From an uncultured Veillonellaceae bacterium (GTDB taxonomy: Bacteria; Bacillota; Negativicutes; Veillonellales; Dialisteraceae): DNA of 64,000 bases. The stretch spans positions 62,001 to 126,000 of the forward strand of contig CASEBK010000047.1 in assembly GCA_949286115.1 (NCBI GenBank). Direction: 5' to 3'. The notes under the pieces are model-generated. The model searched no databases, had not been told where the DNA came from, and worked only from the letters and a program-made list of their open reading frames with translations. Both the position numbers and the translations under genes were made by a program. How positions within the stretch are numbered: the stretch's first letter is position 1; every line of letters begins with the position of its first letter. Shown here piece by piece: positions 33,134-34,011 of this stretch.

Positions 33134-33766
33134 TTATCTGCTGATGCTCCAGCCGCTCCGGTGGAGCGCCGCGATGATCGGGGCGATGATGACGCCGGAG
33201 ACGATCGCTTCGGGGAGCCCATTTGCGATGGTGATGCCGATGAAGATGTTCGCCACCCCCTGGAGGGAGATGCCCTGCATTTCCGCATAGGGCGCGCCCA
33301 CGAGGACGAAGAGCGTCCCCAGGAAGAGCACCGTGTGGCATACGGTGGTGACCACCGCGGCGATGGCCGCGCGGAGGAAGACCCGCATGTGGAGATGACT
33401 GAAGATGAGATAGGCGATGATGCCGATCAGGATGCGCGGCACGATGCACACGATGGCGTCATAGGCGATATTATACTGCACCGCGAACTGGAGCAAAAGG
33501 CTCGGCGCGCGGAGCGACTGCACGAACGAGAAGAGCCCGAACATGAAGCCCACGAGCGCCCCCACGCGGGGCCCGGCGGCGATGCTGCCGATGATGGTGG
33601 GGATGTGCAGGATGGTCGCATCCATAAAAAGAAGCGGGATAAACCCATACCCGGTGAGACCGAGGAAGATGGTGATGCCCGCCAGAAGACCGGACACAGT
33701 GAGCTGGCGCACGTTCAGAAACGCCCGCGGCTGCTGCGCCTTTTTCGCATTGATCGTTTTTTCCAT
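33134..33766 (-). CDS. ECF transporter S component (vitamin/cofactor uptake)
   Basis: 210-aa membrane protein with about five to six helices. It starts with a conserved pre-helix LNVRQLTVSGLLAGITI, then ATILHIPTIIGSIAAGPRVGALVGFMFGLFSF, which matches the PF12822-type S-components (pantothenate/folate-like group). It binds a vitamin and pairs with a shared ECF ATPase/EcfT module encoded elsewhere. Ligand is not deducible from the protein, but the structured leader at 33829-33891 suggests ligand-responsive control. ATG follows a GGAGG site. Confidence 0.85.
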   Translation of the reverse strand: MEKTINAKKAQQPRAFLNVRQLTVSGLLAGITIFLGLTGYGFIPLLFMDATILHIPTIIGSIAAGPRVGALVGFMFGLFSFVQSLRAPSLLLQFAVQYNIAYDAIVCIVPRILIGIIAYLIFSHLHMRVFLRAAIAAVVTTVCHTVLFLGTLFVLVGAPYAEMQGISLQGVANIFIGITIANGLPEAIVSGVIIAPIIAALHRSGWSISR

Positions 33767-33828
33767 TGTGAAAAGCCTCCGTTCTTATTCTCTGAGAGAT
33801 ATAAGCCGTACGAAACATGGTTTCTCCT

Positions 33829-33891
33829 CTGGCGTTACCTGTCATGCCGTCCAGTTCGACCGATACCGGCAATGCGTGACCCCTCCGCCAG
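33829..33891 (-). ncRNA. Structured leader RNA of the ECF S-component gene, candidate riboswitch of unknown class
   Basis: A 63-nt element closed by CTGGCG / CGCCAG. Inside it GTCA pairs with TGAC and TGCCG with CGGCA, separated by a one-sided 5-base bulge (CGCAT), and purine-rich junction strands (GAGGG and AGGTAA) flank the inner stem. It starts about 10 bases after the -10 box, and more than 60 bases follow before the start codon, including a second small hairpin. I cannot match it to a known class from memory. Confidence 0.45.
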
Positions 33892-33899
33892 CTTTTGTT

Positions 33900-33927
33900 A
33901 TTATACCCGGCGGCCATCCCCTGTCAA
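33900..33927 (-). promoter_or_regulatory. Consensus promoter of the ECF S-component transcript
   Basis: TTGACA (33922-33927), a 16-base spacer and TATAAT (33900-33905): both hexamers perfect, about 135 bases ahead of the start codon. Confidence 0.8.
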
Positions 33928-34011
33928 TCGCAAAAGCGCGGCACGACTCAAGAAAATTTATATAGAACGCCATAAAAAATGCCATAAAAAAAGCGGTCGA
34001 AGCCGCCTCTT

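Follow-up and report, generated by a model that had tools for sequence, protein, structure and literature searches.

A divergent tandem pan RNA in the leader of a predicted pantothenate transporter gene from an uncultured Veillonellaceae bacterium

RNA leaders of the tetrahydrofolate (THF), preQ1 and TPP riboswitch classes are found upstream of various ECF vitamin S-component genes. The window analysed here, a stretch of 64,000 nucleotides from an uncultured Veillonellaceae bacterium, contains an S-component gene with a structured leader that an earlier note, written from the sequence alone, had presented as a candidate riboswitch of unassigned class. The locus raises three questions: which vitamin the transporter imports, to which RNA family the leader belongs, and how such a leader might control the gene.

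The gene (33134..33766, minus strand) encodes a 210-aa product of the ECF S-component family PF12822. Its only relatives of solved structure at E<=1 are chains of PDB entries 4rfs (E 4e-14) and 6zg3 (E 2e-4), which we take to be the ECF-PanT pantothenate transporters of Lactobacillus brevis and L. delbrueckii. Neither a full-length panB nor a panC gene was found in the window genome, which is about 90% complete, or in two relatives from the same genus; a sub-cutoff panB fragment of 40 positions and about 20 bits is present in the window genome and in one of these relatives (G001) and absent from the other (G002). A gene for the type III pantothenate kinase, coaX, was found in the window genome. 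Since coaX is present and no convincing panB or panC is, the cell probably imports pantothenate and makes CoA from it, with the genome completeness of about 90% as a caveat. The substrate is most likely pantothenate, as judged from homology and from the absence of panB and panC, and the gene is referred to below as panT. Folate, thiamine and queuosine precursors, which the note had listed as ligand candidates, are ruled out as substrates: the nearest solved proteins are PanT, and the leader matches none of the THF, preQ1 and TPP classes in Rfam at E<=10.

All parts of the finding lie on the minus strand, where the panT leader extends from about 33893 to 33767. It is preceded by a sigma-70 type promoter, TTGACA-16-TATAAT (33900..33927), which matches the consensus at 12 of 12 positions, as claimed, and from which the transcript is expected to start near 33893; in shuffled sequences, promoter-like sites averaged 0.5 per whole 1.1 kb region even at a looser threshold of 9/12. 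The upstream minus-strand gene ends in a terminator-like hairpin followed by a T run (34020-33984, minus strand), which separates it from the panT promoter.

The 63-nt element reported earlier (33829..33891) was reproduced exactly: CTGGCG (33891-33886) pairs with CGCCAG (33834-33829) in the predicted fold and closes an element of exactly 63 nt. The closing helix is kept within the genus, where three members have CUGGCG/CGCCAG, GCUGGCA/UGCCAGC and CCGAUG/CAUCGG in the same register with different sequences; outside the genus, an enclosing helix is common without being fixed. This outer element is real, but the informative units are two small hairpins with bulged A's, delineated by a structural descriptor, by a covariance model (R1, see below) and by covariation. 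Hairpin 1 (33847..33872; UUGCCGGU-A-UC GGUC GA-ACUGG-A-CGG, bulged A's at 33864 and 33850) is presented inside the 63-nt element. Hairpin 2 (33780..33808; CGG CUUAU-A-UCU ... AGA-AUAAG-A-ACG, bulged A's at 33800 and 33783) is the second small hairpin that the note had correctly placed before the ribosome site. Its 3' end reaches into the Shine-Dalgarno sequence GGAGG (33776..33780), the first G of which is the last paired base of the hairpin. Both hairpins are built alike: a basal stem of three pairs is followed by an A bulged from the 3' strand, a stem of five pairs, an A bulged from the 5' strand, UC/GA and finally the loop. The descriptor, which captures two bulged A's on opposite strands and five base pairs apart, identified hairpin 1, hairpin 2 and one unrelated single match in the 64-kb window, with a single tandem occurrence. 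In 60 dinucleotide shuffles it yielded 0.68 matches per 64 kb and no tandem.

Judged by folding energy alone, the structure is unremarkable (leader, z -1.4; 64-nt stretch, z -1.86; about -1.2 to -1.9 overall), and the stability of hairpin 2 is only moderate (-6.9 kcal/mol). The structure is judged real because of comparative evidence, namely covariation and a closing helix kept with changed sequence. The block directly before the panT start is nearly invariant in orthologues (CGRCUURUAUCY-loop-RGARYRAGARCGGAGG), and many orthologous leaders carry a similar second hairpin 50-70 nt further upstream. In MAFFT alignments, which are not fitted to the structure, 99.1% of the hairpin 2 cells over 44 orthologues are paired, double changes occur in 6 of the 10 pairs, and double-change cells number 41 compared with 15.1 in shuffles; this set was completed with three leaders missed by the descriptor (L004, L021 and L080), of which L021 and L080 bring compensatory changes. 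For the tandem over 17 leaders, 96.8% of cells are paired and 44 show double changes (14.5 in shuffles), the paired fraction of hairpin 1 being biased upward by its selection with the descriptor. Loci L026 and L063, both misaligned in alignment A1, were left out of alignment A3. The covariation signal disappears when the pairing partner is shifted by 1-3 columns. When 56 leaders were aligned to R1, an alignment that leans to the structure, 16 of the 20 pairs covaried; the check upstream of orthologues that had been proposed thus came out in favour of a conserved RNA. The four bulged A's are retained by 55, 55, 56 and 56 of these 56 R1-fitted leaders while the stems vary, and the GGAGG tail is nearly invariant.

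This architecture recalls the pan motif (RF01749), usually a tandem of hairpins with two conserved bulged A's apiece, located 5' of pantothenate genes; published pan RNAs sit upstream of panB, panC and aspartate decarboxylase (panD) operons (Weinberg et al. 2010, PMC2864571). The window copy is below the gathering threshold of the Rfam pan model (36.2 bits): no pan match was obtained in the 64-kb window at gathering, and none was reported for the leader even at E<=10. Weak matches to microRNAs, sRNAs and snoRNAs are attributed to chance. Orthologous leaders do match RF01749 above gathering, including L083 (45.8 bits) and L017 (38.2 bits), seven panT leaders of the order, among them those of the same-family genomes G007 (44.2 bits) and G003 (38.2 bits), and six panT leaders beyond the order (L166, L171, L183, L180, L184 and L182). 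The idea that Rfam misses panT-type leaders in general is wrong, because 6 of 18 loci pass gathering in a direct cmscan; more are missed by strictly filtered whole-genome scans. Model R1, built from 17 orthologous leaders with the window's genus left out, has the window element as its sole match in the 64-kb window (59.6 bits, E 5e-11) and recovers 34 of 38 pan loci, mainly from panB, panC and Rossmann-gene operons. By this two-step link through R1, the window leader is a divergent tandem pan RNA of the RF01749 family, the direct Rfam test being formally below threshold, and the label of an unassigned class no longer applies.

A panT relative is encoded in 59 of the 60 genomes of the order, and an R1 match adjoins panT in 56 of the 60, the window's included. 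The four genomes without a panT-adjoining match are G004 (upstream region masked), G011 (no panT found), G052 and G059. Outside the order, all of the loci inspected within the class (L166, L169 and L171-L179) precede an S-component gene, as do most inspected R1 and R2 matches elsewhere in the phylum, and the hairpin 2 tail of the panT-linked leaders is the Shine-Dalgarno sequence, a few nucleotides before the start. A single-hairpin form, with hairpin 2 kept and hairpin 1 degenerate, occurs in the f4/g7 genomes and in L024. At L065, L068 and L069, panT is present as a tandem duplicate, each copy having its own tandem pan leader. At L185:731-2134, a gene resembling coaX by eye lies directly upstream of a pan leader and panT. 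Three loci (L093, L094 and L095) contain paralogous ECF S-component genes whose leader resembles a TPP riboswitch in sequence (CUUUGAACCUG...).

The likeliest function, as read from the sequence, is feedback repression of panT translation, with hairpin 2 covering the Shine-Dalgarno sequence. The two bulged-A hairpins would form in the panT mRNA, with the first G of the Shine-Dalgarno taken up by the last pair of hairpin 2. When pantothenate/CoA is replete, an RNA-binding protein or a pathway metabolite would bind the bulged-A hairpins and keep hairpin 2 closed, so that ribosomes would be excluded and no PanT made; when CoA is short, hairpin 2 would be free to open and pantothenate uptake would rise. 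Only the first base of the Shine-Dalgarno is paired in hairpin 2; for this reason, the hairpin would probably not suffice for occlusion by itself, and a bound factor would be needed. The direction of control, the occlusion and the nature of the signal are inferred here from sequence. In biosynthetic operons, a terminator follows whose 5' arm (CCUUCUG, CCUUUCG) complements the pan tail (for example, CAGAGGG, CGGAAGG); of 38 loci, 12 show this complementarity at p<=0.05, against an expectation of about 2, and most single loci are not significant. Hairpin 2 and the antiterminator would be mutually exclusive there, so a stabilised hairpin would mean termination. Since this tail is the Shine-Dalgarno in panT leaders, a stabilised or occupied hairpin would there mean no translation. 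Both readings suggest a switch that turns expression off once the pathway product is abundant, and we regard the overall scheme, a tandem pan RNA in the panT 5' UTR through which a factor-held hairpin 2 blocks translation under replete conditions, as probable.

The earlier note was right that this ECF S-component leader is structured and regulated; it may be a riboswitch or a protein-binding leader. If pan RNA is a true riboswitch, its tandem hairpins would together make up a single binding pocket for pantothenate, phosphopantetheine or CoA, with no protein involved. This is a serious possibility that we place somewhat below an even chance: nearly all loci seen are restricted to genes of the pantothenate/CoA pathway, the unpaired A's are strictly conserved, and attenuator-like terminators follow in biosynthetic operons, but very few conserved unpaired bases are available for an aptamer, the single-hairpin versions with a degenerate hairpin 1 (f4/g7 genomes and L024) fit a protein site better, and a dimeric protein-binding motif was suggested when the RNA was described (PMC2864571). 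The scarcity of conserved unpaired bases and the single-hairpin variants lead us to lean slightly towards a protein as the sensing factor. A wider reading, in which pan on its own would sense CoA or a derivative of pantothenate and would govern both the synthesis of vitamin B5 (by transcription attenuation) and its uptake (by Shine-Dalgarno occlusion) across Firmicutes, is rather unlikely; CoA was still without a known riboswitch in 2022 (PMC9971707). The open-access literature searched yielded no pan ligand, binding protein or panT association, and a description elsewhere is possible.

Two further explanations concern what the conserved dyads are. A new, unrelated riboswitch class for an ECF-imported vitamin would account for the lack of an Rfam match in the window itself, but it is refuted to the point of being barely credible by the orthologous leaders that pass RF01749 gathering and by the shared model that bridges both sets. 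Given their palindromic sequence and their position shortly after the promoter, the hairpins could also be read not as RNA structure but as repressor operators in the DNA. Frequent G-U pairs at stem positions, variable loop length, invariant single-sided bulged A's and a hairpin 2 position fixed relative to the Shine-Dalgarno, not the promoter, make this equally improbable.

Several pan RNAs elsewhere adjoin other genes. In family f3, they lie 5' of a PanS-like gene of the sodium bile acid symporter family, and panC follows at a greater distance (L096, L105 and L108). At L106, L109, L118 and L123, the gene after the pan RNA, itself upstream of panB, encodes a Rossmann-like reductase (PF10727) that is a candidate for an alternative ketopantoate reductase. 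A pan RNA (1501-1598) with a terminator is found about 200 nt upstream of a gene resembling birA by eye at L142:1501-2770, which suggests control beyond panBCD and panT. At L198:1501-3082, a pan RNA and a terminator precede an ORF resembling, by eye, an OPT-type oligopeptide transporter, possibly involved in the uptake of a pantothenate precursor.

The link of pan to a pantothenate transporter in genomes apparently unable to make the vitamin suggests that the motif responds to pantothenate/CoA supply and not to an intermediate of biosynthesis, for example ketopantoate or beta-alanine. A minimal version of pan, with one or two hairpins and no terminator, is represented by the panT leaders and should be easier to test, and RF01749 is undercounted by Rfam's model. 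The panT-linked form overlapping the Shine-Dalgarno, present across Veillonellales and other Firmicutes, was not found described in the open-access literature searched.

Compared with known systems, the window protein resembles ECF-PanT (PDB 4rfs and 6zg3) over nearly its full length (E 4e-14), its pantothenate specificity being an assignment from homology and pathway context. The leader shares with the pan motif RF01749 the tandem hairpins with two bulged A's each, the hairpin register, the occurrence in Firmicutes and the location in the 5' UTR of a pantothenate-pathway gene. It differs in the gene that follows: pan RNAs as published, like sister loci that precede panB and panC, belong to biosynthetic operons, whereas the window copy lies 5' of panT, a transporter gene of the same pathway. 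In biosynthetic operons the 3' tail stands before a terminator, whereas in the window it is the Shine-Dalgarno sequence. The window copy and many of its relatives also have a purine-A mismatch at the third basal pair of hairpin 2, and hairpin 1 of the window is presented on a longer outer helix.
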